Both the position numbers and the translations under genes were made by a program. Shown here one piece after another: positions 15,101 to 64,000 of a stretch of DNA of 64,000 bases; the first letter of the stretch is position 1, and each line of letters opens with the position of its first letter. The notes under the pieces are model-generated. The model saw nothing but the letters and a program-made list of their open reading frames with translations. It did not search any database and was not told where the DNA came from. The DNA comes from Pontiellaceae bacterium B12219 (lineage in GTDB: Bacteria; Verrucomicrobiota; Kiritimatiellia; Kiritimatiellales; Pontiellaceae), in assembly GCA_029432795.1 (NCBI GenBank), contig JARNMJ010000004.1:1-64000 (forward strand), read 5' to 3'.

Positions 15101-15303
15101 CACAATGCGGTATAACAGGAGCGTTTGAGTTTTTTCTGTTGAGTCCGCCATGGTTTAGACCGCGAAACAATGCAATATGCATTTTGCGGCTCCTCTGTCA
15201 GAGCATCTCTTTTTGTTGATAGAGGATCTGGGAGCCATATGCTGAAAATACGCAAATGTTTTGTCTGTTTTTACCTTAATCACAACCCAAAGGAATCATT
15301 GTT

Positions 15304-26903: not shown

Positions 26904-27569
26904 TCAAGGCTCCGGAGAGAAAATTCCAAGCCGATGGGCTTTGTTGACCGCGGCAGCTGCGTTTTGGACTTCGAGTTTTTCGTAGATGTGGCGGACGTGG
27001 TCGGCAACAGTCGTAAAAGCGATTCCCAGTTGATCGGCAATTTCTTTTTTTAACAACCCTTCCCCGATAAGGATCAGTATTTCAAGTTCCCGGGAGGATA
27101 GTTCTTTTTCAAGAGGAACTTTGTCTGTGCGTTTGGCCAGGGTGTCGAGAATGAATCGAGCTACTTGAGGGTCGAGCGTTGCTCCGCCATTCATGACCGT
27201 GTTGATGCCGTCCTTGATCTGGGTAACCGTCGCTGATTTTAACAGATAGCCTTTTGCACCTAATGAAATTGCTTTTAAAACATCATTCTGATTATCGGAC
27301 TGCGTCAGGATGATGACTTTAAGGCTGGGAATGGTTTGTTTGAAAAAGGGCAATGCTTCGAGTCCGGAAATACCCGGAAGATTCAAGTCGAGCAGGAGGA
27401 GGTCAGGTTCGATACGAGTCGTCATATCCTGCAGGCTGCGAAGGGCAATTTCAGCGGTCGTGAACTGGCTGATCAGCTCGATCTTCTCTTCTCCTTTCAA
27501 TGCCCTGGCAATGACTTCGCGGTATCCTGCATGATCTTCAATGAGCATAACTTTTATTAATGATTTCAT
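26904..27569 (-). CDS. NarL/LuxR-type response regulator
   Basis: 221 aa. An N-terminal receiver domain has acidic pocket E11-D12 in MLIEDHAGYREV, phosphoacceptor D61 in DLLLLDLNLPG, and conserved Thr/Ser and Lys in LTQSDNQND and GAKGYLLKSAT. The C-terminal LuxR helix-turn-helix (about 155-215) contains LSSRELEILILIGEGLLKKEIADQLG and TTVADHVRHIYEKL. Its start overlaps the kinase stop by ATGA, so the pair is co-translated. It is about 65% alike by eye to the regulator at 63099. The most likely targets are the surrounding glycan-degradation genes, possibly through the recurrent motif, but this is inference. Confidence 0.93.
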   Translation of the reverse strand: MKSLIKVMLIEDHAGYREVIARALKGEEKIELISQFTTAEIALRSLQDMTTRIEPDLLLLDLNLPGISGLEALPFFKQTIPSLKVIILTQSDNQNDVLKAISLGAKGYLLKSATVTQIKDGINTVMNGGATLDPQVARFILDTLAKRTDKVPLEKELSSRELEILILIGEGLLKKEIADQLGIAFTTVADHVRHIYEKLEVQNAAAAVNKAHRLGIFSPEP

Positions 27570-39270: not shown

Positions 39271-39480
39271 TTGTGTTCCCCCCCAAAAAATAAACGGAGA
39301 CAATACGAAAAGAAATCCACCTAAGTAGGATATCCATTTTTCATATGTAATGAAAAGAAGAGCGGCAAGCGATGGAGACAGAGTTTAATGATTCCGAACC
39401 TTGTTCGATTGTCTAGCTTTGAAAGAAAAAGGAATCACGAACAGGCCATGAGTAATGGGTCACGTCAAAAGGAGGAAGTG

Positions 39481-41652
39481 ATGAAGTTGAAAGACAAAAT
39501 TATGATCACATTGAATCTGAACAAGTTAGGTGCGAAGAAGAAAATGAGTCTTGCAGGGCTACCTCTGGCTCTGGGGGTGTCCATGCTTATGCATATCAAT
39601 GTGTATGGGTCATTGGATAATTTAGAGGATTATTCAGAATTTGGATCATCCTATTCAGGTGCCGGCAGTACCTACTTATCCGATACGTATTCCGCTCAAA
39701 TGGATCAATCGGGATTCGCTGCGTTTTCCTGGGATACGGTGCCGCGCGCGGTCATCTTACGGAGTGGTTCCCGGATGAGTGACGACGCGGTGGAGCGAAT
39801 CGCGAATGCCTACTCTCTGGTTGTGCTGGAAAAATCAAATTCACAAGGATTGGCATCTACAGAAGAGGGCGTTATTGACCTTGCGACACGCTTAAAGGCG
39901 GTAAATCCAAACGTAAAAAATCTATTTTACTGGAATACGTTTTATCGCTGGGACGGATATGAGGCGAATGTCGAATTTGATGAGCATCTTGTTGAATGGA
40001 CCCGGACGGCGGGAGTGCCTGACAGTATGGGACGCTACCGCTATGTGCACAATAACAGTGATTTCCGAGACTGGTGGGTGGCGAGCGGTCTGGCGGTAGC
40101 CATGAACAGTGCGGTAGATGGCGTCTTCCTGGATACCCTTGATAATTGGGAGGGACGTTATTTTAATGATGATGGAAGTACGGTTACGGAATACAGCAGT
40201 TACTGGAAATATGGCCATACGGATATGGTGAATGAACTCGTAAAGCAGCTTCCGTCGTCAAAGCTGATGATCGGAAATGGCGGAACCTACAACCACGAGC
40301 CTAATGGGGGGCGGGAGTGGCTGCGTATTCTGGATGGAACGTATACGGAGGCATGGGAGAGGGTCAATTCCGAGAGCATTCCCGCACAAACGCAAGCGGA
40401 TGGAACCGCGATCAATATGCAGCTGTTACGTGAGGCCGCCGTTAAAAATAAAACGATACTTTTTCGGTCGAGTCCTGATCACAATACGCAATTTACAAAT
40501 GATCCGGAACCGGCGGAACTGTCCGATCGACTGGATTGGGTAGAGCGAAACGTCTATTATCCTCTGGCGGTATTTTTAATGATTGCGGAAGAAAATTCGT
40601 TTTTCCATTTCAGTGACGGAGTCTATGCCGGTACCGGCGAAAATGACTGGCATATTTGGGATACGAGCTATATGGAGATCTTTGAAAAGCCGTTGGGAGC
40701 CCCGCTGGGTGCTCCGGTAAAAAATGGCTATCTCTATACCCGTTCTTTTGTTTACCTGGATGTGTCGGTGAATGTGGAAACCGGAGAAACAACCTTTGAT
40801 TGGAAAGATTCGGAAAGGGTTGAACCGGTCGCCTTGGGCAAGGTTACTGCGCAGTCTACAACGGTGCATGGCGGAGTTGCTTCGCGCGCCGTTGATGGGA
40901 ATACGAGTGGTGTTTGGGGCGATGGATCGGTAACGCATACCGCTTCGGAAGAAAATCCCTGGTGGGAAGTTGATCTGGGTGCGAACTACAGTATCCGCGC
41001 CATACAGATCTTTAATCGTTCGGTTCTTCAGAGCAGGCTTTCGGACTTTACTGTTTCTCTGATCAACAGTAGCGGTGCCGTCACATATTCTCAAACATTC
41101 AGTGATTATCCTGACCCGTCTCTTGTTATAAATACAGAGGGGGCGGTCGGCCATACTGTCCGGGTGCAGTTGAATGAAACGGGAATATTGTCATTGGCCG
41201 AAGTGGAGGTTTATGGCGGTTTAATTCCCTACGTGAATATACGTAAACGTAATGCATTGGAGTATGCGCTTGATGGAAGCGGGAATGAATCCAACGGTCA
41301 GAATGTGTATCTGTGGAGTTACGCAATAAATAATCCTAATCAGCAGTGGGAAGAAATCGACCGGGGTAACGGATATTATTCATATCAAAAAAAGGGAACG
41401 AACTATTCCCTGGATGGCGGATCCGGCGGGGCCAATAATCAGAATGTGAATTTATGGACCACCAGTGCCTCAAATTATAATCAACACTGGAAAAAAGTGG
41501 ATATGGGCAATGGATACTTCCAATTGCAGAAACGTAATGCATTGGGATTTTGCCTGAACGGTGGAAGTGGTGGAGCCAATTCTCAGAATGTAAATCTTTG
41601 GTCTTCCAGTAGCTCCAGCTACAACCTGCAATGGTTGATTGAGGAGCAATAA
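39481..41652 (+). CDS. Putative TIM-barrel glycoside hydrolase with CBM32 and ricin-type lectin domains
   Basis: 723 aa from ATG 39481, selected because AAAAGGAGGAAG immediately precedes it; the frame is open further upstream. A signal or membrane segment (SLAGLPLALGVSMLMHINVYG) is followed by the same TIM barrel as at 33586 (about 75-440): FSWDTVPRAVILRSGSRMSD, DGVFLDTLDN (D213, D218) and DGTYTEAW (E290). A discoidin/CBM32 domain (about 446-580, ENPWWEVDLGANYSIRAIQI) and a ricin-B/CBM13-like trefoil (about 583-723) with three repeats of the NVxLW ... NxQW type follow. Two carbohydrate-binding modules on a catalytic barrel suggest an enzyme acting on insoluble or long polymer. The GH family is not assigned with certainty. 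Confidence 0.7.
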   Translation: MKLKDKIMITLNLNKLGAKKKMSLAGLPLALGVSMLMHINVYGSLDNLEDYSEFGSSYSGAGSTYLSDTYSAQMDQSGFAAFSWDTVPRAVILRSGSRMSDDAVERIANAYSLVVLEKSNSQGLASTEEGVIDLATRLKAVNPNVKNLFYWNTFYRWDGYEANVEFDEHLVEWTRTAGVPDSMGRYRYVHNNSDFRDWWVASGLAVAMNSAVDGVFLDTLDNWEGRYFNDDGSTVTEYSSYWKYGHTDMVNELVKQLPSSKLMIGNGGTYNHEPNGGREWLRILDGTYTEAWERVNSESIPAQTQADGTAINMQLLREAAVKNKTILFRSSPDHNTQFTNDPEPAELSDRLDWVERNVYYPLAVFLMIAEENSFFHFSDGVYAGTGENDWHIWDTSYMEIFEKPLGAPLGAPVKNGYLYTRSFVYLDVSVNVETGETTFDWKDSERVEPVALGKVTAQSTTVHGGVASRAVDGNTSGVWGDGSVTHTASEENPWWEVDLGANYSIRAIQIFNRSVLQSRLSDFTVSLINSSGAVTYSQTFSDYPDPSLVINTEGAVGHTVRVQLNETGILSLAEVEVYGGLIPYVNIRKRNALEYALDGSGNESNGQNVYLWSYAINNPNQQWEEIDRGNGYYSYQKKGTNYSLDGGSGGANNQNVNLWTTSASNYNQHWKKVDMGNGYFQLQKRNALGFCLNGGSGGANSQNVNLWSSSSSSYNLQWLIEEQ

Positions 41653-41835: not shown

Positions 41836-44082
41836 ATGAATAAAGTTGTATTGGTGAGCTTGGTGGCCCTGTCGTTTGTGACAGCTATGGCACGTTCTGA
41901 AACGCCCGATATTATGCTGGATGTCAACTGGCCTGAATTTATGGAAAACCTGGACCCTGTTTGGGAAGAGTTGCCGAGTGTTCCGAAGCATGGCCCCATG
42001 ATTGGAAACGGCATGCTGGGTACTTACCTGATTCAGGATGAAGAAACGGGGGAGATTCGTTTTGAAATGAGTCGGTCGGACTTATGCGATGTACGGGCCG
42101 GATTTAATCGCCGGAAAACGAATGGCTATTTTAAGCTGGCGCTCAACGGAGAACGACCGACAGGAACCTGTCGGCTGGATCTGTGGAATGCGCAGTTGAC
42201 CGCGGATCTGCAGGTGTCAGATGGATCTCTTTCTTTACGGGCGTTTGCCGATGCCAACAGTGATGTGATCGTTTTTGTATTTGAACAAACGGGCGTAAAC
42301 CTGACATGGGATTGGGTTCCGGACAATCGGGGCTGGGCGGGGACCGTTCCGAAAATTCCTGATGGGTATGTTCCGTATCCCGAGCCGGTGCTGCTCGAAT
42401 ATCAGAAGTGCCAGGTTAGTGTGCAGGATATGCCGACAGACCAAAAATACTGGACGCAGCATGAACCGGCAGCCTCTCAGCATGCGACAGCTTGGCGCAT
42501 ACTCCATGCGAAGGGAAAAACCTATGTTTTTGCCAGCACGACCTTCGCTTATCGCACCTCAACCGCGAAACAACAGGCGGTGGATAATATCAATCAGGCG
42601 ATTTCCAAAGGGTTTCCGGAACTGGAGGCCGAACATCAGGCCTGGTGGCAGGAGTTTTATCAGCAGAGTTTTGTGACTCTTCCTCAAAAGTTCGAGTGGT
42701 TCCATTGGATGCAGATCTATAAAATCGGCTGTATGACGCGGCCCGATGCGCCGGTGATTATCGACTTGATCGGCCCGTGGTTTGATCGGGATTTGATCTG
42801 GAATGGAATCTGGTTCAATTGGAACACCCAGAAGCAGTATAGCAATGTGTTTACTTCAAACCATCCGGAACTGGCCGATTCTCTTCTCAACAGTTTATGG
42901 AATCAGCGCGAGAATTTATATGATGCTGAAAGTGACGGCTACGGTGTTCCGTGGGGAGGATGCGGTGCGCATAACCTTGCACGGCAAAACTGGAGGGATG
43001 CAGCCTGTCTGACATGGTTGCTCAGTTTGGGTTGGGAGCGCTATCAGTGCACGATGGATGCAGAGCAGTTGCTGAACAAGGTGTATCCCATGTTGAAGGG
43101 ATCATACAACTACATGAAGCACCATTACCTCGTTGAAGGAGAGGATGGATTGCTTCATTTTAAGCCGGGAGCCAGTCCGGAATATCATTTTAAGGTCGAT
43201 GGGGTGAAAATTCGGGACTTTGAGGATATCACCTTCCAGATCGCGAATATGCGTTGGGCGTGTAATACCATTATCAAGATCAATGAACGGTACGGAGTCG
43301 ATGAGGCCGATGCGATTGAATGCCGGTCAATCTTAGACCGGTTGACGCCCTACTGTGTCGACCCCGAGCAGGGATTCATGATTGGAAAAGATACATTGCT
43401 GGGCCATGCCCACCGGCACGACTCGCACGAGCTTCAAATATTTCCTTACTACGAATACACGCCGGATAACCCGGAGCAGGTTGATGTGATTCAAAAAACA
43501 CTGGCACATCATAAAAATATCGGATTTCAGGACCAGGGAATGGCGGATGCCACGTGGGGAATTATGCGGGCGATGTTTGGCGACGGAAACGATGCGCTGT
43601 GGTCGATCACGCATGAAACCGGCTATGTAAATCATCCAGACGTCAGCCCATACACGACGCGGTTGGCTGTATATAAAACCGCCTATGTTGAAGAAGGGCC
43701 CTTTCTCGGCGATCGAGTCATTCAGGAAATGCTGTTGCAAAGCTGGGGCGACGACATTATCCGGGTATTTCCCGCTGTGCCCGACGATCCCGACTGGGAT
43801 GACCTCGCTTTCCATAATTTCAGGGCAAAGGGCGCGTTTTTGGTGACCGCCAAACGGGCTGACCGGAAAACGAGTTTTATAAAAATTGAGAGCCTCGAAG
43901 GCGAAGTTTGTAAAGTGAAGTTCGATCTGGACGGGCCGATACAGATCGCCGGTAACGCCGATTGTACGATTACAGATTTAGGGAATGGAATTATACAAAT
44001 TAATAACCTTAAAAAGGGGCAGTGGTGCGTGCTCTATACCGGCCCGCTACCGGATCTGCGTATCGTGGCGAAAAATTTGTAA
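41836..44082 (+). CDS. GH95-like glycosidase, divergent clade
   Basis: 748 aa with a signal peptide (VSLVALSFVTAMARS). The layout follows GH95: N-terminal beta domain with PMIGNGMLGTY (counterpart of [11 protein letters not shown]), an (alpha/alpha)6 domain, and a C-terminal beta part after EMLLQSWGDDIIRVFPAVP. The general-acid motif is retained as GASPEYHF (E449), and an Asn of the Asn pair is retained in WFNWNTQKQYS. Where GH95 has the catalytic Asp of IDGNFGG, this protein has E620 in VEEGPFLGD, counted eleven residues before the shared (E/D)MLLQS block. The gene at 55966 shows the same change. Specificity is unknown; alpha-L-fucose or alpha-L-galactose would suit the neighbourhood. No sulfatase overlaps it. 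Confidence 0.7.
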   Translation: MNKVVLVSLVALSFVTAMARSETPDIMLDVNWPEFMENLDPVWEELPSVPKHGPMIGNGMLGTYLIQDEETGEIRFEMSRSDLCDVRAGFNRRKTNGYFKLALNGERPTGTCRLDLWNAQLTADLQVSDGSLSLRAFADANSDVIVFVFEQTGVNLTWDWVPDNRGWAGTVPKIPDGYVPYPEPVLLEYQKCQVSVQDMPTDQKYWTQHEPAASQHATAWRILHAKGKTYVFASTTFAYRTSTAKQQAVDNINQAISKGFPELEAEHQAWWQEFYQQSFVTLPQKFEWFHWMQIYKIGCMTRPDAPVIIDLIGPWFDRDLIWNGIWFNWNTQKQYSNVFTSNHPELADSLLNSLWNQRENLYDAESDGYGVPWGGCGAHNLARQNWRDAACLTWLLSLGWERYQCTMDAEQLLNKVYPMLKGSYNYMKHHYLVEGEDGLLHFKPGASPEYHFKVDGVKIRDFEDITFQIANMRWACNTIIKINERYGVDEADAIECRSILDRLTPYCVDPEQGFMIGKDTLLGHAHRHDSHELQIFPYYEYTPDNPEQVDVIQKTLAHHKNIGFQDQGMADATWGIMRAMFGDGNDALWSITHETGYVNHPDVSPYTTRLAVYKTAYVEEGPFLGDRVIQEMLLQSWGDDIIRVFPAVPDDPDWDDLAFHNFRAKGAFLVTAKRADRKTSFIKIESLEGEVCKVKFDLDGPIQIAGNADCTITDLGNGIIQINNLKKGQWCVLYTGPLPDLRIVAKNL

Positions 44083-50191: not shown

Positions 50192-50273
50192 GGCTGTGCG
50201 CGGAGCGAAATAGCGGCGGAAGTTGACTGATCTCTAATGCGAATTGAATGTTTGACCAAATAAGGAAATGGCA

Positions 50274-51746
50274 ATGAAACTAAGAACCCTTGGACTGCTT
50301 GTCCTTTACATGGCATCGGCATCAATGGCGGGAGCAATCGCACTGGAGGGCAGCCGCCCGAATATTATTCTGGTGATGACGGATGATCAGGGAATGGGCG
50401 ATCTTTCCTGTATGGGAAATCCGATTCTCAAGACGCCGCATCTGGATCAATTCTATGAGCAGTCGACCCGCTTCACGGATTTTCAGGTGAGCCCGACCTG
50501 TGCACCGACGCGTGCCGCCATCATGAGCGGGCGCGCGCCGTTTAAGAATGGGGTAACGCACACCATTCTGCAACGTGAACGCATGGCGCTTGATACTTTC
50601 ACGATCGCGGAGGCCTTGAAGTCGGCCGGTTATGCAACCGGGATCTTCGGGAAATGGCATCTCGGGGATGAAGAGGACTATCTGCCCGGCAGCCGCGGAT
50701 TTGACGAAGTTCTGATTCATGGGGCGGGGGGAATCGGACAGGTTGCCCTCGGCGATTTCCCTCCGAACAGGGACGACTGCTATTTTGATAATGTCCTGTT
50801 GCACAACGACACCATTGTCAAAACCGAAGGGTTCTGTACGGATCTGTTTTTTCAATCCGGCCTGGCCTGGATCAAAAAACAGGAAAAGTCAGGTACACCG
50901 TATTTTGCCTACATTTCCCTGAATGCGCCGCATGGTCCATACTACGCGCCGGCTTCATACACGCAGCGTTTTATCGATGCAGGGTACGATGAGAAAACCG
51001 CGGGCCGATACGGCATGATTGAAAATATCGACGATAATTTCGGGCTGCTTTGGAAAAAGCTCAATGAATGGAAGGCATTGGAAAATACGCTTCTTATTTT
51101 TATGACCGACAACGGCATGTCCATGCCGGCGATCACATTCAACGGAAAGAAGCAGCGCCCGTTTAATGCGGATATGCGAGGTGGTAAAAATTCGCCGAAT
51201 GAAGGCGGAACCCATGTTCCGGCATTCTGGTATTGGAAGGGCGTGCTGGGCGAAGGTGTGGATATCGATGCGCTGACAGCGCATATCGATCTTTATCAAA
51301 CCTTCTGCGATCTGGCCGGAGTGCAGCTGCCTGCCACGGTGCAGAAAATGGATGGTCGCTCGCTGATGCCTCTGCTCAACAATCCGGACGCCGACTGGGC
51401 GGACCGTGAGTTGTTCTTCCATTGCGGCCGCTGGAAAGCGGGCGAGCGCGACGATTTTAAATTTAAAAAATGCGGGGTGCGTACCGGGAAATGGCGCTTC
51501 ACGAATAATACGGAATTATACGATATTTCAACGGATCCGGGCGAAACCAGGAATGTGGCGTCGGCCCATCCTGAGGTGGTGGAGAAACTTCGTAAAGCCT
51601 ACGACCAATGGTGGGCATCGGTGTTGCCCCTGATGGTGAATGAGGATTTGCCGAGAGTGGCTCCGGATGATCAGCCGCTGGCTGTTCGTTATAATCACCA
51701 GCTGAAGGAAATCGGGATTCCGGACTGGGCTCCGGAAGATTTGTAA
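50274..51746 (+). CDS. Sulfatase (S1, formylglycine type, CAPTR variant)
   Basis: 490 aa from ATG 50274; AAGGA at 50262-50266 is better spaced for this start than for the ATG at 50268. Signal peptide (LGLLVLYMASASMAGA). The formylglycine cysteine is C76 in PTCAPTRAAIMSGRAPFKNG. Other site motifs are MTDDQGMGDL, GKWHLGDEEDYLPGSRGFDE and FMTDNGMSMPA. It is closest to the sulfatase just downstream (both have TDDQG and the GFDE/GFQE plus HGAGG/HGGGG block), so these two form a subgroup different from the CTPSR enzymes in the first block. It probably acts on another sulfate position. Confidence 0.93.
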   Translation: MKLRTLGLLVLYMASASMAGAIALEGSRPNIILVMTDDQGMGDLSCMGNPILKTPHLDQFYEQSTRFTDFQVSPTCAPTRAAIMSGRAPFKNGVTHTILQRERMALDTFTIAEALKSAGYATGIFGKWHLGDEEDYLPGSRGFDEVLIHGAGGIGQVALGDFPPNRDDCYFDNVLLHNDTIVKTEGFCTDLFFQSGLAWIKKQEKSGTPYFAYISLNAPHGPYYAPASYTQRFIDAGYDEKTAGRYGMIENIDDNFGLLWKKLNEWKALENTLLIFMTDNGMSMPAITFNGKKQRPFNADMRGGKNSPNEGGTHVPAFWYWKGVLGEGVDIDALTAHIDLYQTFCDLAGVQLPATVQKMDGRSLMPLLNNPDADWADRELFFHCGRWKAGERDDFKFKKCGVRTGKWRFTNNTELYDISTDPGETRNVASAHPEVVEKLRKAYDQWWASVLPLMVNEDLPRVAPDDQPLAVRYNHQLKEIGIPDWAPEDL

Positions 51747-51832
51747 GGGCGCGGCTGCGCTAAAACCGTTTAAGCCTGTGTTCAGAGGTTTTGAAAGCAG
51801 GGTCAGATAAAAAAACGTATGGGGATGGAATC

Positions 51833-53617
51833 ATGAATTCTAAGGCTGTGTTTCGTTTGATGATTGGGATGGTGGTGCTGACCGCTGTTTCTCGCGGAGT
51901 TGCTGCGGCAAAAGAGCGGCCTAATGTGGTTGTGGTTATTACAGATGATCAGGGAAAGAACGATCTGGCCTGTCTGGGTAATCCGATTATAAAAACGCCC
52001 CATATCGATGCCTTTTATGAGGATGCGGTTCGTTTCACCGATTTCCATGTTTCCACCACCTGTGCTCCGAGCCGCGGGTCGCTCATGACCGGTCGGCACT
52101 GCAACCGGTTGAATGTATTCCATACCATCACCGGACGTTCGCTGCTGTTTGAAGATGAGGTTATTCTGCCGGAGCTGTTTGCCCAAAACGGCTACGCCAC
52201 GGGCATGTTCGGGAAGTGGCATCTGGGGGATAATTATCCCTTCCGTCCGATGGATCGCGGTTTTCAGGAAGTGGTGCGGCATGGCGGCGGCGGGATTACA
52301 CAGGGACCCGACTACTGGGGCAATGATTATTTTGACGATACCTATTGGCATAACGGGGAACTGCAGACGTATGAGGGCTATTGCACGGATGTCTTTTTTT
52401 CCGAAGCACTGCAGTTTATTGAGAAGAACAAAAATCGACCGTTTTTCTGCTACATTTCCTCCAATGCGCCGCATGCGCCGTACAACGTTCCGGAAGCCTA
52501 TCTCAAGATGTATGAAAATGTTCCGGGGCTGGCGGAGCGGTTTCAGCGCTTTTACGGCATGATCACCAATATCGATTATAATTTCAAGCGGCTGACCGAC
52601 AAACTGGATGCACTGAATTTGACGGACAACACGATTCTTATTTTTATGACGGATAACGGTTCGGCCGGCGGCAACAAAATTTATGACGCGGGCATGAAGG
52701 GCTCCAAGGGCAGTGAGTACGAAGGCGGACATCGGGTGCCGTTTTTTATCCGCTGGCCGAATGGTCAGATCACCGGCGGAAAGGACATCGATCAGCTGGT
52801 GGCGCATTACGATGTGTTGCCGACGTTTGTGGATCTGCTCGGACTCGATTATGAGCCAGCCAAACCGTTGGATGGCATCAGCTTTAAATCGCTGCTGACG
52901 GAATCCGAGCCCGCCTGGCCGGACCGCATTCTGTATATGGATACCCAGCGGCTTCAGAACCTGGTTAAATATCGTAAATATACCGTGATGGATAAGGACT
53001 GGCGGCTGGTCAACGGCGATGAGCTTTATAAGATGTCCGACGATCTCGGTCAGACGACGAATGTATTTGATCAGTTTCCAGAGGTTGGAAAACGGCTGGC
53101 CGAGGGCTATGAGCAGTGGTGGACTTCCATTACGGAGGAGGGCGTGAATGAACGCTACGCGTACATCAAAGTGGGAACGCCCCATGAGAACCCGAGCCGT
53201 ATTTCTGCACACGATATGCTGACGGGAAAACACGGGCAGGTGTGGCATCAGATCGGCGCGGCGGTTGGGGCACAGGGTACGGGCCGTTGGAAAATTGAGT
53301 TTGTCGAGGATGGGGAATACACCATCAGCTTGCGGCGCTTTCCGCGGGAAAGCGGACTGGCCATCAACGCCACCTTTCCGGCTCAGGAAAAAACAGTTGA
53401 GCTGGACCGGACGCTGCCGGCGAGTGTGAAGTCAGATTTTACGGAAGCTTACCTGTATGTGGCCAATCTTCAGGGCACCCGGAAAATAGAAGAAGGCCAG
53501 GATGAAGTAACGTTTAAGGCGACGATTCCGGCGGGCAGGTACGACATGGAGGCCCAGTTGATCGATCGAGAGAAACGCGTATCTCCCGCATTCTACGTGT
53601 ATATCGAGAAACTGTAA
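51833..53617 (+). CDS. Sulfatase (S1) with extra C-terminal beta domain
   Basis: 594 aa from ATG 51833 (GGGGATGGA upstream), where a signal peptide begins (LMIGMVVLTAVSRGVAAA); the frame is open 42 bases earlier. The formylglycine cysteine is C77 in TTCAPSRGSLMTGRH. Supporting motifs: ITDDQGKNDL, GKWHLGDNYPFRPMDRGFQE, FMTDNGSAGG. The sulfatase fold ends near residue 450. The remaining ~140 residues (WHQIGAAVGAQGTGRWKIEF ... YTISLRRFPRESGLAINATF) are a beta-sandwich often attached to this arylsulfatase group, perhaps for substrate contact. It is the paralogue of the preceding sulfatase. A weak promoter-like motif and a palindromic element follow before the next GH29. Confidence 0.93.
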   Translation: MNSKAVFRLMIGMVVLTAVSRGVAAAKERPNVVVVITDDQGKNDLACLGNPIIKTPHIDAFYEDAVRFTDFHVSTTCAPSRGSLMTGRHCNRLNVFHTITGRSLLFEDEVILPELFAQNGYATGMFGKWHLGDNYPFRPMDRGFQEVVRHGGGGITQGPDYWGNDYFDDTYWHNGELQTYEGYCTDVFFSEALQFIEKNKNRPFFCYISSNAPHAPYNVPEAYLKMYENVPGLAERFQRFYGMITNIDYNFKRLTDKLDALNLTDNTILIFMTDNGSAGGNKIYDAGMKGSKGSEYEGGHRVPFFIRWPNGQITGGKDIDQLVAHYDVLPTFVDLLGLDYEPAKPLDGISFKSLLTESEPAWPDRILYMDTQRLQNLVKYRKYTVMDKDWRLVNGDELYKMSDDLGQTTNVFDQFPEVGKRLAEGYEQWWTSITEEGVNERYAYIKVGTPHENPSRISAHDMLTGKHGQVWHQIGAAVGAQGTGRWKIEFVEDGEYTISLRRFPRESGLAINATFPAQEKTVELDRTLPASVKSDFTEAYLYVANLQGTRKIEEGQDEVTFKATIPAGRYDMEAQLIDREKRVSPAFYVYIEKL

Positions 53618-55965: not shown

Positions 55966-58365
55966 ATGAAGTATAGATGGTTGGCTACATTGGCGACTTT
56001 GTTGTGCGGCACGTGTTTCGGCGAGGCAAACGGCGTTCAAACCGAACCGCCCTCCATTGACTTTGAAGCCTTTCTGACGCAGCACGACATGGTTTGGGAT
56101 CGGATTCCCGACTGCTGGCAGGTGGCACCGTATACGGGAAACGGCAATGTGGGGTTTCTACTCTATCAGCTGGAGGATGAAGGCGCAAATACGATAGCGC
56201 TGCATATCGGTCGGCATGATTATTATGATCACCGCCTGCCGTATGAGGGCAAACAAATGCTCTGGATCTATCGCTCCCGACTTCCGCTGGGTCATTTTAA
56301 ACTCGAATCGGAAGGGGACATTACGGATATCGATCTGCGTCTGAGCCTGTGGAATGCGGAAGTGACCGGCGAGATTAAAACAACCAAGGGCTCGTATGCA
56401 GTTCATGGGCTGACACACGCCATGACCGATGTGATCTATTTTGAAACGGATGCGGAGGGCGGAGAGTCGGTAAAAATTACGTGGCATCCGGACGTGCCTT
56501 TCGCTCCCGTTCGTAAATCGCTGGATGAAGGCGGCGGGCCGAAGGGCTCTTCTTTTTGGGACGACATGCGCACGGCCCCGTATCCGCTCCCGCCGGAACC
56601 TGTCCTGAGTGAAGAAGACAGGATGCAGTTTTGCCTGCAAATGCTTTACGATAACCGGGGCGAAACCACCACCGGCTGGGACATTTCCGGCAAGGCCGAC
56701 GGTAAACAGCTTTTAACCGCGAGTGTTCATCACAGCTTTCCGGAACACAACAGTCTGGATATCGTGAAGGAGAATCTTTCCAATGCCCGGAACATGGCGA
56801 GGGACCAGACCTTTTTATCCAGTCATCGGACCTGGTGGAACGACTACTATCCGCAGAGTTTTCTGACGGTAAATGATCCGGAGAAGGAAGCCTTTTACTG
56901 GATTCAGATGTATAAGTTTGCTTCAGCCACCCGCGGAAACGGGCCCATTCTGGATCTGATGGGACCGTGGTACAACGAAACCTTCTGGCCGATGGTCTGG
57001 GGCGATCTCAATGTGCAGCTGATTTACTGGACCCACCTGACGGCCAATCGGCTGGAGGCTGGCGAGTCGCTGGTGAATAACGTGGATAAATATGCGGAAA
57101 ACCTCACGAAAAATGCGCCGGAGCGTTGGCCGGACAGTGCAACATTGGGGGCTTGTTTCCCACAGGATATGCTGGCCGATAACGGATTCCCGGACATGCT
57201 GGTCTGGTTGCTGCATGACTATTGGCTGCATTGTGAATTTGCCGGTGACCGTGAACGTATGCGCGATGGCCTTTTCCCGGTATTGCGGCAGGGCGTGAAC
57301 AGCTATCTGAATTACCTCAAAGAAAATCCCGTGGAAGCCGAGGATGGCACCATTCATATTAAAAGCAGCTGGTCGCCTGAGTATAAACCCGGATATGGGC
57401 AGGATATCAATTTCACCATTGCACTGATGCAGTGGAGTTGTCAGACCTTATTGGATCTAAACGCGGAGTTTCAGCTGAACGATCCGTTGGCTGCTGAATG
57501 GCAGAACATCGTCGACAATCTGGTCGAATTCCAGATCGATGAAAACGGGCTGCGGATTGGAAGGGATATTCCGTTCGATAAACCGCATCGCCACTATTCA
57601 CACCTGCTCGGATTTTATCCGCTGGCGGTGATGACTGCCGACAATGATGCTGAAGCGGCATTAGTCCGTACAACATTGGATCATTGGTTGGATGTCTCGA
57701 TTAACGGGACCGATACGAGTGCCGGCGGAACGAAGGTGACCGGTTATACCTGCACGGGCGCGACCTCGATGTATGCCTGGTTGGGCGATGGTGAAACGGC
57801 CTATACCTATCTCGATATGTTTATCAAACATCCAGGCGTTGCTCCGACGACGATGTATGCGGAAGTGGGCCATAATCCGGTGATTGAAAGTCCCTTCTCC
57901 TATGCCACCTCCATGCACGATATGCTGTTGCAGAGCTGGGGCGGGAAGATTCGTGTTTTTGCGGGCGCTCCTTCAACCTGGTCCGATGTGGCTTTCAGGG
58001 ATTTGCGCACGCAGGGCGCATTTTTGGTCAGTGCCAAAAAGAAGCAGGGCATCACGCAGTTTGTTACAGTTGAAAGTCTGGCCGGCTCTCCCTGCTTCAT
58101 TAAAACCGATATTCCGAACCCGAAGATTTATATTAACGGAACGGCAGTCCAACACGATCAGGTACGTATCGATGAAGATGGCATAACAGAGCTTTCTTTG
58201 AAAAAGGGGGATGTTGCCATCTTTACGCCGGTTGCGCTCGAAGAAACCGATCTGAATATCCAGCCGGTTCCGGTCCGCGCCGAGGATCAGAATTTATTTG
58301 GATTGAGCGAGAAAACCAAACGCCTTCCGGGGCATCAGAACTATTACAACGAGGATGTGAAATGA
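55966..58365 (+). CDS. GH95-like glycosidase, divergent clade
   Basis: 799 aa with a signal peptide (LATLATLLCGTCFGEA). It is homologous to the protein at 41836 over its whole length: VWDRIPDCWQVAPYTGNGNVG at the start, RLSLWNAEVTGEI, GPWYNETFWPMVWGDLN, and DMLLQSWGGKIRVFAGAP near the end. The GH95 general-acid motif survives as SSWSPEYKPG (E472), and a conserved Asn in GDLNVQLIYW. The Asp of the GH95 IDGNFGG motif is replaced by E641 in VIESPFSYATSMHD. A C-terminal beta tail contains PCFIKTDIPN. Its stop overlaps the next gene by ATGA, so it is coupled to the GH141-like/TIM-barrel fusion. Specificity is not known. Confidence 0.72.
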   Translation: MKYRWLATLATLLCGTCFGEANGVQTEPPSIDFEAFLTQHDMVWDRIPDCWQVAPYTGNGNVGFLLYQLEDEGANTIALHIGRHDYYDHRLPYEGKQMLWIYRSRLPLGHFKLESEGDITDIDLRLSLWNAEVTGEIKTTKGSYAVHGLTHAMTDVIYFETDAEGGESVKITWHPDVPFAPVRKSLDEGGGPKGSSFWDDMRTAPYPLPPEPVLSEEDRMQFCLQMLYDNRGETTTGWDISGKADGKQLLTASVHHSFPEHNSLDIVKENLSNARNMARDQTFLSSHRTWWNDYYPQSFLTVNDPEKEAFYWIQMYKFASATRGNGPILDLMGPWYNETFWPMVWGDLNVQLIYWTHLTANRLEAGESLVNNVDKYAENLTKNAPERWPDSATLGACFPQDMLADNGFPDMLVWLLHDYWLHCEFAGDRERMRDGLFPVLRQGVNSYLNYLKENPVEAEDGTIHIKSSWSPEYKPGYGQDINFTIALMQWSCQTLLDLNAEFQLNDPLAAEWQNIVDNLVEFQIDENGLRIGRDIPFDKPHRHYSHLLGFYPLAVMTADNDAEAALVRTTLDHWLDVSINGTDTSAGGTKVTGYTCTGATSMYAWLGDGETAYTYLDMFIKHPGVAPTTMYAEVGHNPVIESPFSYATSMHDMLLQSWGGKIRVFAGAPSTWSDVAFRDLRTQGAFLVSAKKKQGITQFVTVESLAGSPCFIKTDIPNPKIYINGTAVQHDQVRIDEDGITELSLKKGDVAIFTPVALEETDLNIQPVPVRAEDQNLFGLSEKTKRLPGHQNYYNEDVK

Positions 58366-61300
58366 AAACGATATTGAGTGTGATTTGTCTGGGTGTTTGC
58401 TGCAGCCTCTCGGCAAAAGAGGTCTATGTTTCGCCGGAGGGTCATGCACAGGCTGACGGCAGTATTGAAAAGCCGTACGCCACCCTTCCCGGAGCGGTAG
58501 CGGCAGTTCGGGCGCTTCGTGCGTCGGGCTATACCGAGCCGGTATCGATTCTATTGCGCGAGGGGCGGCATTCCTTAAAAGAGACGCTGGTGCTCGGATT
58601 GGCGGATGGGAATCCCGCTGCCCCGATGCAAACTGCTCTGCCGATGTATGGGGCCGGCGAAATTGCGGATTCAACGTATTTGACGATTGCGGCCTATCCG
58701 GGCGAGCAACCGGTGATCAGTGCGGGGGTTCCGGTGACCGGCTGGCAACGCCTTGAAATGGCACCGCCTGAACTTCCGGAGGAGGCGGCCGGCAAGGTGT
58801 GGGTGGCCGATATGCCCGAAGGAATGGGTCGGTTTTATACGCTTTATGATGGAAACGGTCGCCTGAAGCGCGCGCGTGACAGCGGTTTTACGGTGACGGA
58901 ACCGGGGGACCTGCGAACACTTCATTTTCCGAAAGGCGCGTTGAAGAATTGGGATAATGTGGAAGACGTGGAGATCAACATCCGACCGTCTCGTGCCTGG
59001 GTGATTAATATGCTTCCGCTGGCATCGGTGAATGAAGAAACGGGCGTTGCAAAAACGGGTGTTTCCGCAACCTATGCCATGGGCCCGATTCCGGGCTGGG
59101 TGCACAATCCTTCCGGGAACCATGTCTGGGTTGAAAATATGCTGGAAGCATTGAACGAGCCCGGCGAGTGGGTGGTGAATACAAAAACGCGGAAGATATA
59201 TCTCTGGCCGCGCGATCCCCAGACGGATGGATCGCCGCGCGGGATTCTGGCGCCAAGCACCAGTGAGCTGATTCGCGTGGAGGGCCAAATTGATTATGAC
59301 GGGCCAACTGATGTTCCAGTGGTTGGAATTGCCTTTGAAGGGCTGACGTTTACGCACGGTGACCGCCGAGCATGGACCAGCGACGAAACGCGTCTGGGCT
59401 GGGGCATCCAGCACGACTGGGATCTGTTTGACCGGCCTTCCGCCATGCTTCGTTTTCGCGGAGCGGAAGCATGTGTGGTGAAAGCGTGCCGATTTGTCGA
59501 TGCCGGCGGTACGGGTATTCGACTGGATCTTCATGCGCAGCGTAATCGGATTGAAGATTGTGAATTTGCGCATTTGGGTGAAGCGGGGATTCTGCTGACG
59601 GGCTATGGCCCCGGAACAAAAGATGTGAATCACCACAATACGATTTCCAACAATCATATTCACCACTTCAGCGAAATCACCTGGCATTCTCCGGGCATCT
59701 GGGCCTGGCAGAGCGGACATAATGAAATGGTGCACAATGAACTGCACCATAGCGGCTATGCGGCCGTAATGATCACGACGCGTGTGCCGCCCGACCGGGG
59801 CTTGAATTCAGAAGGCGGACGGACGGTTCGCCAGCATGAAATTCCGGCGGAAGATAAAGAGGGGGTTGTCCGGTCGTATGAAAACTGGAAGGCACGCGAA
59901 AAATATAACCATTCACGGAACAACCTGTTTGAATACAATGAAATCAGCCATACCGTGCAGCTGCTCTCCGATGGCAATGCGGTTTATGTTTCCGGAACGG
60001 GCGGGGGGAACATTATCCGCTATAACTATATTCACGATAATCTGGAGCATTCCTTCCCGTCCGCCATTCGGTGCGATGATGACCAGCATGAAACGCTTAT
60101 TTATGGAAATGTGCTGGTTAACAACTATGGGTTTTCTGCCGGTATTGCATCCAAAGGAGTCAACGATATCATCAATAACTTTATCGTGAATCCGCTCACT
60201 GCTCCCAATTGGGGATATATCAGTCTGGAATGGTATCCGGTGACGGGCTCGAAAATTCAGCGGAATGTGATTATTGCCCATTCTGACGGGGGCAATGCGC
60301 AGGCGCAGCGCCCGATACATCCGAGTAAGCAGGGTCCGCTCGGAAAGCCTGAACTGAAGACAACGAATATGGATTCAAATCTCTATTATCATGCGAGCAG
60401 TCCGGCATGGATGGATGAGCATTTGGAGATGATGCAGTCGGCTGGACTGGAACGGAGCAGCCTGGTGGGCGATCCTCTTTTTGTTGATCCGGATAACGGC
60501 GATTTCTCGTTTCATCTTGGCAGCCCGTTTGTACCTCAAAAGAATTTTCCGAAGTTCAGTTGGGACACCACGCCGATGTATTACATGTTCGGTGAAATGG
60601 CTCGGGTGCTGCATCCGGAGGAAATGGCTTTTATTGCGGAACGAACTGACTTCCTCTGTATTGAAAAATCGCATGGACTCAAGCAGCTCGGTGCGGCTGA
60701 ACTGGGTGCAAAGCACGATGCCGCCGCCTTTAAACAGATTAAGCCCGATATGAAGGTGCTGTTTTATTTTAACTCGGCCTATGCCTGGCCGTTCACCTCG
60801 TATAACAAAATGTTCCGGGGCGGAATGATCGATCAGTATCCTGAACTGAAGAAATTTTTAATAGTGGATCCGGAAACCGGTGAACTGGAGCATCGCAACA
60901 AGGTCTTTTTCTTTGACGTGCTGAATCCGGATTTACGCGAATGGTGGGTGAACACGGTTGCGAAGGGCGTGACGGAATCGGGATGTGACGGAGCCTTTAT
61001 TGACCAGATGCATGGTTTTTCCTGGTTGCGGAAAGATAGGAGCGCAGAGGTTGAGCTGGCCATGGGGGAAATGATGGCTGCGCTGAAAGAAAAGATGGGG
61101 CCGGATAAAATTCTGCTTGCGAACAATGCCCATCAGGATATTGCCAAACACGTCTTCCCGGTCATGGATGCCAGTATGTTTGAGCATTATAAGGGAGAAC
61201 TCCTCAGCAAAGAGAGTCTGCTGCGGGACTGGAACGATATGCTGCGTATCGCCCGGGCGGGTAAAATGTCTATCTTCCGGATCGGAGTGGAAGTTGATCG

Positions 61301-61601
61301 CAGCCGGGGCAGGAAGAGCAGCGTGGACGAGCGGGCCGAGCTGGCACGGGAACGTCTTGAATATTATCTCGCCTGCTATCTCATCGGTGCCCAGCCTTAT
61401 TTCTATTTTCAATATGGCTGGGGGTGGAAGCTGGGGGATGGATCGCTGTATGATTATCCGGAGCTGCAAAAACCGTTGGGAGAACCAAAAGGGCCGTATC
61501 GGCGCATTACGCCGGATGGGTGGGAGTTTACCCGTGAATTTGAGCACGCCGAGGTGTGGGTGGATACTGACAAGGGTGAAGCACGAATCACGTGGCGGTA
61601 A
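58362..61601 (+). CDS. GH141-like beta-helix fused to TIM-barrel glycosidase domain
   Basis: 1079 aa. Signal peptide (ILSVICLGVCCSLSA), then a right-handed beta-helix (about 20-720) opening KEVYVSPEGHAQADGS, with LNEPGEWVVNTKTRKIYLWP and rungs such as NRIEDCEFAHLGEAGILLTG; this is the same architecture as the GH141-like protein at 11618. At about residue 725 the sequence switches to FPKFSWDTTPMYYMFGEMAR, the opening of the TIM-barrel family at 33586 and 39481. Candidate catalytic residues there are D881 in GCDGAFIDQMHGF and E941 in DASMFEHYKGE. The C-terminus RRITPDGWEFTREFEHAEVW corresponds to the barrel ends of the other two. Two potential glycosidase activities in one chain suggest sequential cleavage of one substrate. 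Confidence 0.8.
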   Translation: MKTILSVICLGVCCSLSAKEVYVSPEGHAQADGSIEKPYATLPGAVAAVRALRASGYTEPVSILLREGRHSLKETLVLGLADGNPAAPMQTALPMYGAGEIADSTYLTIAAYPGEQPVISAGVPVTGWQRLEMAPPELPEEAAGKVWVADMPEGMGRFYTLYDGNGRLKRARDSGFTVTEPGDLRTLHFPKGALKNWDNVEDVEINIRPSRAWVINMLPLASVNEETGVAKTGVSATYAMGPIPGWVHNPSGNHVWVENMLEALNEPGEWVVNTKTRKIYLWPRDPQTDGSPRGILAPSTSELIRVEGQIDYDGPTDVPVVGIAFEGLTFTHGDRRAWTSDETRLGWGIQHDWDLFDRPSAMLRFRGAEACVVKACRFVDAGGTGIRLDLHAQRNRIEDCEFAHLGEAGILLTGYGPGTKDVNHHNTISNNHIHHFSEITWHSPGIWAWQSGHNEMVHNELHHSGYAAVMITTRVPPDRGLNSEGGRTVRQHEIPAEDKEGVVRSYENWKAREKYNHSRNNLFEYNEISHTVQLLSDGNAVYVSGTGGGNIIRYNYIHDNLEHSFPSAIRCDDDQHETLIYGNVLVNNYGFSAGIASKGVNDIINNFIVNPLTAPNWGYISLEWYPVTGSKIQRNVIIAHSDGGNAQAQRPIHPSKQGPLGKPELKTTNMDSNLYYHASSPAWMDEHLEMMQSAGLERSSLVGDPLFVDPDNGDFSFHLGSPFVPQKNFPKFSWDTTPMYYMFGEMARVLHPEEMAFIAERTDFLCIEKSHGLKQLGAAELGAKHDAAAFKQIKPDMKVLFYFNSAYAWPFTSYNKMFRGGMIDQYPELKKFLIVDPETGELEHRNKVFFFDVLNPDLREWWVNTVAKGVTESGCDGAFIDQMHGFSWLRKDRSAEVELAMGEMMAALKEKMGPDKILLANNAHQDIAKHVFPVMDASMFEHYKGELLSKESLLRDWNDMLRIARAGKMSIFRIGVEVDRSRGRKSSVDERAELARERLEYYLACYLIGAQPYFYFQYGWGWKLGDGSLYDYPELQKPLGEPKGPYRRITPDGWEFTREFEHAEVWVDTDKGEARITWR

Positions 61602-61697: not shown

Positions 61698-62831
61698 ATG
61701 GACATGAAAATTCTAAATAAGGTGCTCTTGGTCGCCATCGCATCGGTGGCATGTTGTGTTCCAGTTCGCGCTCTGGAACCGCTGGAGGAATCCAATCAGG
61801 AGTATCTGGCCGTGGCGGTTAATCGGTTTCTGGAAAAATCCGATAAAAACGGAGATGGCATTGTTGAGCAAGACGAAGACGAAACGCAGTGGAAGCGGAA
61901 CCGTAAGCTCGATAAAAACGGCGATGGAGTATTGGACCGAAAGGAGCTGGAGGGACTTTCGCTGCAGTATGTAACCAGTCCCGGGAAACAGTTGCGCAAC
62001 GTCTGTTTTAAACGCACTGAAACTGAAGATGTCTATCTGGACTTTTATTTCCCGGATGTGGATGACAGCAAAAAGAAACCCGTCGTTCTTTATACGCATG
62101 GCGGCGGTTGGGCGGCGGGAAGCCGGCACGGAGCCGGCAATGCATCGTTTGATGTTGTTCATGGTGCCTTGTTGAAGCAGGGATTCTGTGTTGTTTCTGT
62201 GGGGTATCGCTTATGGAGTAAAGAAGGAATGACTGCCATGCGCGATTGTGTGATTGACTCAAAAGATGCGCTCCGTTTTGTCTCGGCCTATCGAAAGGAA
62301 CTGGGAATTGATCCGAACCGGATCTATACCTTCGGCGATTCGGCCGGCGGCCATCTTGCACAAATGGTACTGCTGTCGCCGCCGGACAGCCTGCAGGGCG
62401 ATCCTGAACTGGCGAAGTATTCGTATAAAACGGTGGCGGGCGTCTCGTGGTACGGGCCGTGCGATTTCGAAGATGAGCAGTTGTTTAATCACGACGACCG
62501 CGAAAATTTCAGAGACCGGTTCGGGCCGCGTATTCTGGGGAAAGACGCTAAGCCTGAAGATAAGCTGAGGCTTTATCGGGAGATGAGCCCGATAAATTAT
62601 CTGACCAAAGACAGTCCGCCACTACTGATGATTCAGGGGGACAAGGATACAACCATTCCGGTTAAGCAGGCCTATCACATGGAAAAGAAGGCCGACGCGA
62701 TCGGGGCTCCGGTGGAAATCATGATTGTGAAAAATGCCGGGCACAACTGGCGGAAGGTGGATGCCGATATTGATCCTTCCAGAAACATTATTATAGATCG
62801 AACCGTCGAGTTTTTCATCAACCACCAATAG
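61698..62831 (+). CDS. Secreted esterase with N-terminal EF-hands
   Basis: 377 aa. Signal peptide (VLLVAIASVACCVPVRA), then two EF-hand loops (DKNGDGIVEQDE from D49, DKNGDGVLDRKE from D72). The alpha/beta-hydrolase domain (about 95-377) has oxyanion motif THGGGW, nucleophile S215 in FGDSAGGH, D317 in GDKDTTIP and H349 in AGHNW: the acetyl/feruloyl esterase arrangement, closely related to the esterase domain at 36321 (shared DCVIDSKDALRF / DCITDSKDAYRF). Removal of acetyl groups from the polysaccharide is the likely role. EF-hands occur also on the phosphatase at 15304. It is the last plus-strand gene; no clear terminator follows. Confidence 0.9.
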   Translation: MDMKILNKVLLVAIASVACCVPVRALEPLEESNQEYLAVAVNRFLEKSDKNGDGIVEQDEDETQWKRNRKLDKNGDGVLDRKELEGLSLQYVTSPGKQLRNVCFKRTETEDVYLDFYFPDVDDSKKKPVVLYTHGGGWAAGSRHGAGNASFDVVHGALLKQGFCVVSVGYRLWSKEGMTAMRDCVIDSKDALRFVSAYRKELGIDPNRIYTFGDSAGGHLAQMVLLSPPDSLQGDPELAKYSYKTVAGVSWYGPCDFEDEQLFNHDDRENFRDRFGPRILGKDAKPEDKLRLYREMSPINYLTKDSPPLLMIQGDKDTTIPVKQAYHMEKKADAIGAPVEIMIVKNAGHNWRKVDADIDPSRNIIIDRTVEFFINHQ

Positions 62832-63098: not shown

Positions 63099-63764
63099 CT
63101 ATAAAAGGCCTTTTTTGTGAGCTTTCGAGATCGCGGCGGGTGCGTTTTGCACGCCGAGTTTTTCGTAGATATGCCGAATATGGGTGGCCACGGTGAAATG
63201 GCTGATGTTGAGCTCGCTGGCAATCTGTTTTTTAAGCAGACCCTCTCCGAGCAGTTTGAGCGTTTCCAGTTCCCGTTCAGAGAGCAGGATTTCCACCTCC
63301 TCTTTGGGCAGTCTGGTTCGCAGCGTATTCAGGATAAAGCGGGCCACGGAGGGGTCGAGCGATGATCCGCCATCCACAACCGTTTGAATGCCTTCTTTAA
63401 TCTGTTGAATTGTGGCTGATTTTAATAGGTATCCTTTGGCACCGTGTGAGATGGCCTGAAGGACATCCTCTTCTTTATCGGATTGGGTGAGTGCGATGAC
63501 GGGGCTGTCGGGAACCGCCTTTGAAAAATGGGGAAGGGCTTCAAGGCCGGACATGCCGGGCAGGTTGAGATCGAGCAGAATGATGTCGGGAACGATCCGG
63601 GTCGACATATCCTGAAAACTGCGCAATGCCCGTTCCGCTGTTCCAACCTGGCTGACCAGTTCCATGGTGGGCTCACGTTTGAGTGCAATATCGATGACCC
63701 GTCTGTATTCCGGGTTGTCTTCGACGAGCATGATTTTAATTTTCTGTTTCATAGCAGGTTTCAT
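63099..63764 (-). CDS. NarL/LuxR-type response regulator, paralogue of the one at 26904
   Basis: 221 aa. Receiver domain with acidic pocket E15-D16 in MLVEDNPEYRRV, phosphoacceptor D65 in IILLDLNLPG, and LTQSDKEED plus GAKGYLLKSAT. The LuxR helix-turn-helix contains LSERELETLKLLGEGLLKKQIASELN and FTVATHIRHIYEKLG. Apart from N-terminal offset it matches the regulator at 26904 through both domains, so the two arose by duplication. Recognition-helix residues are similar (HFTVATHIRHIY versus FTTVADHVRHIY), and related binding sites are possible. Its ATG overlaps the stop of the upstream kinase by ATGA. The two regulators bracket the second half of the locus. Confidence 0.93.
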   Translation of the reverse strand: MKPAMKQKIKIMLVEDNPEYRRVIDIALKREPTMELVSQVGTAERALRSFQDMSTRIVPDIILLDLNLPGMSGLEALPHFSKAVPDSPVIALTQSDKEEDVLQAISHGAKGYLLKSATIQQIKEGIQTVVDGGSSLDPSVARFILNTLRTRLPKEEVEILLSERELETLKLLGEGLLKKQIASELNISHFTVATHIRHIYEKLGVQNAPAAISKAHKKGLL

Positions 63765-64000
63765 CTCCGAATTCTAAATTTGTGCGGTTTAAACTTCAGG
63801 GTGATGCAGGTTCCGCCGGATGCCGGGGTTGGACTGGAAACCTGTCCCCCGAGCAGGCGGGCTCGGCGTTTTAACGACGTTGGAACCTCTCCGATAAAGC
63901 CGTGGCCGTTATCGGTGATGGTTAAATAAATTTCGGTGCTGTCCGCAGTCAGGTTAATGCGTACTTCTGTGGCTTCGGAATGGCGGCTGATATTGACGAG
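63761..64000 (-). CDS. Sensor histidine kinase, C-terminal end (partial)
   Basis: The reverse strand from 64000 to the TGA at 63761-63763 reads as the ATPase end of a HisKA_3-class kinase: N-box LVNISRHSEATEVRIN, G-box ITDNGHGF and a closing SGGTCITLKF. It corresponds to YKECLANIIRHSNATEV and SDNGFGL of the kinase at 27566, with the same SLxRRARLL segment. The gene continues beyond the right edge, so its sensor region cannot be described. It is coupled to the regulator at 63099 in the same arrangement as the first pair. Confidence 0.9.
   Translation of the reverse strand, partial: LVNISRHSEATEVRINLTADSTEIYLTITDNGHGFIGEVPTSLKRRARLLGGQVSSPTPASGGTCITLKFKPHKFRIRR

Follow-up and report, generated by a model that had tools for sequence, protein, structure and literature searches.

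A GH141-type beta-helix and a GH168 barrel joined on one predicted secreted protein in a fucoidan-type gene cluster of Pontiellaceae bacterium B12219

Overview

We analyzed a 64,000-nucleotide stretch of DNA (the window), which sits on a 146-kb contig of a marine bacterium, and found in it a single gene encoding a GH141-type beta-helix followed by a GH168 barrel. Judged from their sequences, both halves of the fused protein appear to act on fucoidan, a tough sulfated sugar found in brown seaweeds. The fusion would be best explained as a secreted two-headed endo-fucanase, a reading that we hold at somewhat better than even. The families are known, and their combination is new and recurrent. The fold and family of both halves, the conserved catalytic residues, the recurrence of the fusion and the cluster context are directly supported. 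The GH141-GH168 join is probably a real working unit rather than an assembly accident, since the same join recurs in distantly related bacteria.

The fused gene

The gene is a single uninterrupted frame of 1079 codons (1079 aa), whose ATG start and the stop codon of the GH95-like gene before it overlap by 4 nt. Its features are as follows.

58362-61601, forward strand: whole fused gene, putative signal peptide, GH141-type beta-helix and GH168 barrel, 1079 aa
58362-58415, forward strand: probable signal peptide, residues 1-18 (LSA followed by KEV), from sequence reading; low-confidence model helix at residues 4-10
58416-60527, forward strand: GH141-type parallel beta-helix, residues 19-722; 9rx2 match, GH141_M at cut-off, BT_1002 fold match
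58791-59213, forward strand: GH141 insertion domain, residues 144-284; Pfam PF21231 at 27.2 bits, cut-off 27
59418-59420, forward strand: Trp353 of QHDW, in 31 of 31 GH141 rows; its counterpart is the Trp of fucanase-type GH141 (PMC12786026) and Gln in BT_1002
59970-59972, forward strand: Asp537 (DGN motif), first of two putative catalytic acids in the GH141 half, conserved in all 31 rows; BT_1002 has an Asp at the aligned position
60075-60077, forward strand: Asp572 (IRCD, RxD signature), the other putative catalytic acid, likewise conserved in all 31 rows; RxD from PMC12786026
60519-60527, forward strand: GSP (residues 720-722) where the halves join; the sister fusion has about 29 residues more at this point
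60528-61598, forward strand: GH168 (beta/alpha)8 barrel, residues 723-1079; PF14885 at 158 bits, 9jos and 8ya6 matches
61002-61004, forward strand: Asp881 (FIDQMHG), equivalent to FunA D206 (PMC7401878); the Asp-to-Ala mutant 9jp3 is altered at the same position
61182-61184, forward strand: Glu941 (MFEHY), equivalent to FunA E264 (PMC7401878)

The hydrophobic leader was read by eye from the sequence as MKTILSVICLGVCCSLSA followed by KEV. An AlphaFold model of the whole fused chain had a mean pLDDT of 91.6 and a pTM of 0.83, with pLDDT values of 84-87 at the GH141/GH168 junction; the least confident stretch is the loop 345-356, which holds Trp353. A search of NCBIfam gave no informative match. 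The initial annotation had described one secreted chain carrying a full GH141-like beta-helix to about residue 720 and a complete barrel, and this description is borne out by the reading frame, the 9rx2 match to residues 33-724, the PF14885 match and the AlphaFold and Foldseek results.

The C-terminal half belongs to GH168

The C-terminal barrel is firmly assigned to GH168, the endo-1,3-fucanase family. The Pfam profile GHL15 (PF14885) matches residues 791-1063 with 158 bits against a cut-off of 27, covering profile positions 1-270 of 271, and GH168 endo-1,3-fucanases in the PDB match residues 720-1079 with E values down to 7e-189. The barrel is 73-76% identical to the solved enzyme 9jos and about 60% identical to Fun168A, and a Foldseek search with the C-terminal half of the model retrieved 9jos and 8ya6 (Fun168A), each with a target TM score of 0.96. 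For residue comparisons we aligned 50 homologues, 31 with a GH141 part and 25 with a GH168 part. Asp881 and Glu941 align with the catalytic residues of 8ya6 and are identical in all GH168 rows, fused or not. Mutation of the corresponding D206 and E264 of FunA abolishes activity (PMC7401878), and the solved mutant 9jp3 has Ala at the position equivalent to Asp881. GH174, GH187 and GH107 were set aside as families for the barrel, given that its solved relatives are named GH168 and that the FunA residues align.

Because the barrel is a GH168 domain, it would very probably be the endo (1,3-fucanase) part of the protein. The linkage that it cuts is not guaranteed by the family, since one GH168 member, FWf5, is an endo-1,4 enzyme (PMC10778895). 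The solved GH168 endo-1,3-fucanases (FunA/Fun168A, 8ya6; 9jos/9jp2/9jp3) have the barrel fold and both catalytic acids in common with the fused barrel but are single catalytic units, whereas the GH168 domain of the window is the C-terminal half of a GH141 protein. Likewise, unfused GH168 relatives have their own signal peptide, whereas the window domain follows GH141 instead.

The N-terminal half and its probable mode of action

PDB entry 9rx2, named "Parallel beta-helix repeat protein", matches residues 33-724 of the fused protein with an E value of 1e-149 and 504 bits. It is a full-length relative of the GH141 half, with the QHDW, DGN and RxD motifs in common, but is a stand-alone beta-helix, unlike the fused window protein. 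The Pfam domain GH141_M (PF21231) at residues 144-284 was barely over threshold (27.2 versus 27 bits), and Foldseek with the N-terminal half of the model found the GH141 enzyme BT_1002 at a target TM score of 0.64-0.69. Asp537, Asp572, Gln350, His351, Trp353 and Arg570 are identical in all 31 GH141 rows, fused or not, and Asn539 of the DGN motif is present in most of them. Asp537 aligns with the BT_1002 Asp at chain position 528, assuming a numbering offset of five residues relative to D523; that alignment ends before the second Asp (D564).

GH141 is polyspecific and includes a xylanase, an RG-II fucosidase and a fucanase (PMC12786026). Its classical member, BT_1002, is an alpha-L-fucosidase, and four GH141 enzymes of a fucoidan cluster are endo-fucanases without fucosidase activity, two of them shown to be endo-1,4 (PMC12786026). 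In the endo-fucanases Wf141_1, Wf141_2 and Wf141_4 of Wenyingzhuangia fucanilytica, three positions that hold other residues in BT_1002 are occupied by Trp, Asn and Arg (PMC12786026). Trp353, Asn539 and Arg570 of the window half, together with the R570-x-D572 pair, fit this set and the RxD signature when matched by motif and spacing only. The Wf141 enzymes resemble the window half in their beta-helix, its putative catalytic Asp pair, Trp/Asn/Arg set, RxD signature and location in a fucoidan cluster; their fusion to another catalytic domain was not found in PMC12786026. They differ in carrying HQxW where the window half has QHxW. The full GH141*6 signature, HQxWxxxD, is absent from the window half, which reads QHDWDLFD, with His and Gln swapped and with the Trp and the Asp four residues on retained. 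Because the published HQxW reads QHxW throughout the clade of the GH141 half, we did not file it in the GH141*6 branch.

By analogy with the Wf141 enzymes, we infer an endo-fucanase-like action for the GH141 half. Two endo activities on one sulfated fucan would be likelier than an exo and an endo activity, because the GH141 enzymes of the fucoidan cluster are endo-fucanases (PMC12786026) and the window half has their Trp/Asn/Arg residues. Alternatively, the GH141 half could be an alpha-L-fucosidase, either exo-acting or debranching, which would remove branches or chain ends and leave cleavage of the 1,3 backbone to the GH168 half. This deserves consideration given the fucosidase activity of BT_1002 (PMC12786026), and joins of an exo and an endo enzyme do occur here, since another Pontiella carries an exo-type GH29 joined to a GH168 domain of this clade (L094, described below). 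We nevertheless consider it unlikely, as BT_1002 is just 17-20% identical and lacks the Trp/Asn/Arg set, and the four fucoidan-cluster enzymes act as endo-fucanases without fucosidase activity (PMC12786026). BT_1002 (PDB 5mqp, active on RG-II) has the overall beta-helix and the insertion domain in common with the window half but differs in its subsite residues, its pectin substrate and the lack of a barrel. The initial annotation had proposed an exo activity combined with an endo or a second exo activity; the endo part agrees with the GH168 assignment, whereas the exo role given to the GH141 part is modified here in favor of a second endo activity.

The same architecture recurs in other genomes

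A search for the same two-domain architecture elsewhere, the check proposed with the initial annotation, comprised a scan of one genome collection together with searches in about 1400 genomes. It yielded four further single-ORF GH141-GH168 proteins, 67-75% identical to the window protein; with the window copy this brings the total to five, each in a different genome, from two phyla.

Pontiella G092 (congener): GH141-GH168 fusion, 1106-aa frame
Rhodopirellula rubra CECT 8075: GH141-GH168 fusion, 1134 aa
Planctomycetia G972: GH141-GH168 fusion, 1129 aa
Pelagicoccus SDUM812005: GH141-GH168 fusion, 1124 aa

With the same domain order in one ORF in four other genomes, the fusion is more than chance or mis-assembly. 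The spacing between the matched parts is exactly 32 residues in all four of these proteins, and the spacer consists of the end of the GH141 unit (ALGIEPLDVSKMGR), about 7 variable residues and then (R)ISDGS, with which the mature GH168 domain begins. These four copies retain the GH141 C-terminus and the mature GH168 N-terminus without the GH168 signal peptide, which in the unfused GH168 relatives precedes the same (R)ISDGS start. Among about 90 more distant GH141 proteins in the same screen, no GH168 fusion was found.

The two domains also occur apart. GH141 and GH168 genes are separate but adjacent in P. desulfatans, Pontiella G093 (in reverse order), P. sulfatireligans and a second Pelagicoccus locus, and lie about 5 kb apart in Cellulophaga. 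In P. sulfatireligans (L095:10932-13818, reverse strand) the GH168 gene that adjoins the GH141 gene is itself split by a DDE transposase gene, and a second GH141 gene (L095:4368-6503, reverse strand) has two in-frame TGA codons 300 codons apart, reflecting either a pseudogene or a sequencing fault. Two further fusions were observed. In Planctomycetia G972, a fusion-clade GH141 domain (72% identity) is joined to a distant GH168 domain (28%) about 16 kb from the standard fusion of that genome (L169:5404-8736, reverse strand). In Pontiella G093 (C122, L094:7195-9777, reverse strand), a GH29 alpha-L-fucosidase is fused to a GH168 domain 79% identical to that of the window, a join of an exo and an endo enzyme. 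GH29 is a second fusion partner for the same GH168 clade.

The junction of the window copy differs from that of the other fusions, reading GSPFVPQ against GSPAxALGIE...SDGSxFVP. Compared with the congener G092, 29 residues are missing in frame, and both ends of the missing segment are GSP in G092. A deletion between these short GSP repeats would be the simplest account of the window junction; an assembly collapse is conceivable from the contig alone. With about 29 residues gone from the join, among them the C-terminal end of the GH141 unit, some decay is conceivable, and the GH141/GH168 pair is broken in P. sulfatireligans. Both observations would suit a protein in which one half serves mainly in binding, or a fusion that arose as a neutral accident through loss of an intergenic region. 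Either reading seems very improbable to us, given the recurrence in two phyla with constant spacing, the confident AlphaFold fold of both halves in the window copy, and the conservation of the catalytic residues. Loss of these residues in one half across homologues would have pointed to a binding role; instead, Asp537/Asp572 and Asp881/Glu941 are intact in all rows.

To examine the origin of the fusion, we ran eight topology tests on small sets of sequences. In the GH141 tree, R. rubra and G092 are sisters (support 95-97/98), whereas in the GH168 tree the same sister pair was rejected (p 0.002). A single clade of fused GH141 halves was rejected (AU p 0.008), and one of fused GH168 halves was allowed provided that the GH29-fused copy formed part of it (p 0.31) but not otherwise (p 0.024). 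A single ancestral fusion inherited as a block was set aside on these tests of the two halves. The conflict between the trees is evidence of half exchange or of repeated joining, and not of more. An early fusion followed by swapping of halves between genes suits the data, because the GH141 and GH168 trees disagree while the join spacing is constant; repeated fusion is a further possibility. Synonymous sites are likely saturated at the protein identities of 73-83%.

The fused gene lies in a fucoidan-type cluster

Pfam scans of the window found at least seven S1 sulfatases, five GH29-type and three GH95-type genes and two further multidomain GH168 genes, in addition to a remote beta-helix, GH43, GH78-type and GH67-like genes and esterase genes. 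By its predicted content this gene set is a fucoidan-type cluster. P. desulfatans and P. sulfatireligans are recorded as fucoidan degraders (PMC10880615). The nearest neighbors of the fused gene are listed below.

50268-51746, forward strand: S1 sulfatase, with a counterpart close to the fusion in two more of the fused genomes
51791-53617, forward strand: S1 sulfatase, travels with the fusion or its unfused relatives at 65-84% identity
53643-55580, forward strand: GH29 alpha-L-fucosidase, with homologues 60-86% identical in clusters with the fusion or related genes
55966-58365, forward strand: upstream GH95-like gene, overlapping the fused gene by 4 nt
61698-62831, forward strand: downstream alpha/beta-hydrolase (BD-FAE esterase type) with an EF-hand-like segment; two other genomes have a homologue close to the fusion

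Homologues of the GH29 gene are found close to the fusion, or to the unfused relatives of the fusion, in G092, R. rubra, G972, both Pelagicoccus loci and G462, and beside the GH29-GH168 fusion of G093. Those of the sulfatase at 51791-53617 were found in G092, both Pelagicoccus loci, G462 and Cellulophaga. Since the gene set keeps its neighbors across phyla, one substrate is pointed to. The GH141 half might instead act on a different part of the cell-wall polymer, for example galactofucan or another sulfated glycan, as the polyspecificity of GH141 (PMC12786026) and the GH43, GH78-type and GH67-like genes of the window would allow. We regard two substrates as improbable, because the closest unfused GH141 and GH168 genes, too, stay close together across phyla and keep the same GH29 and sulfatase nearby. 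A common fucan substrate for the two halves is preferred.

The initial annotation stated that each part also occurs in the window as a protein of its own, which is true only loosely. A beta-helix gene is present at 11618-14188, but it is a remote relative (20% identity) without the QHDW and DGN motifs, and the GH168 barrels at 33586-36267 and 39388-41652 are 25-30% identical and lie within multidomain proteins. A closer stand-alone GH141 (43%) is located at contig position 118318, beyond the window.

Several other features of the cluster were recorded. The GH95-like genes at 41836-44082 and 55966-58365 score 79-85 bits, against 535 for the gene at 4435, and possibly form a separate subgroup. 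Two histidine-phosphatase-family genes, one with EF-hands, lie inside the cluster at 14318-16374, and in Cellulophaga (L172) a 69% homologue of such a window gene follows the GH141 gene. Two response regulators of the LuxR type, accompanied by sensor kinases encoded on the other strand, are located at 26904-29539 and 63099-64000 (reverse strand); one of the window sensor kinases has a 48% homologue beside the Pelagicoccus fusion (L175). An IS66-type transposase gene (3-731, reverse strand) borders the cluster at the left edge of the window.

Proposed function and significance

If both halves are endo-acting, the GH141 beta-helix would cut one type of backbone linkage in sulfated fucan, most likely alpha-1,4, and the GH168 barrel would cut alpha-1,3 linkages of the same polymer. 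Tethering may keep both cuts on the same chain, so that a polymer with alternating linkages or mixed sulfation would be reduced to short oligosaccharides, which the co-travelling sulfatases and the GH29 and GH95 fucosidases could then trim. A more specific proposal, which we hold tentatively and at a little under even, is that of a bifunctional endo-fucanase cutting the alternating alpha-1,3 and alpha-1,4 linkages of one fucan, accompanied by a fixed sulfatase-GH29 set moving among Planctomycetota, Verrucomicrobiota and Bacteroidota, with GH168 as a swappable module partnered by GH141 or GH29.

Multimodular GH-GH enzymes carry two catalytic domains on one chain, as the GH141-GH168 fusion does, and are presumed to gain from a proximity effect. 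A description of this fusion was not found in the open-access literature on GH141, GH168, GH174, GH187, Pontiella and multimodular fucanases (subscription papers and CAZy lay outside the search). Degradation of fucoidan is slow, and understanding of the enzymes involved is poor. Fucoidan clusters have GH141 among their core families, and a role for it there first emerged with the report of endo-fucanase activity in December 2025 (PMC12786026). The natural joining of GH141 to a GH168 domain with a well-supported predicted activity would tie both families to a common substrate. The single protein and its four natural variants offer a system for studying linkage choice and the effect of tethering, and the fusion protein could serve as a tool for making defined fucoidan oligosaccharides.
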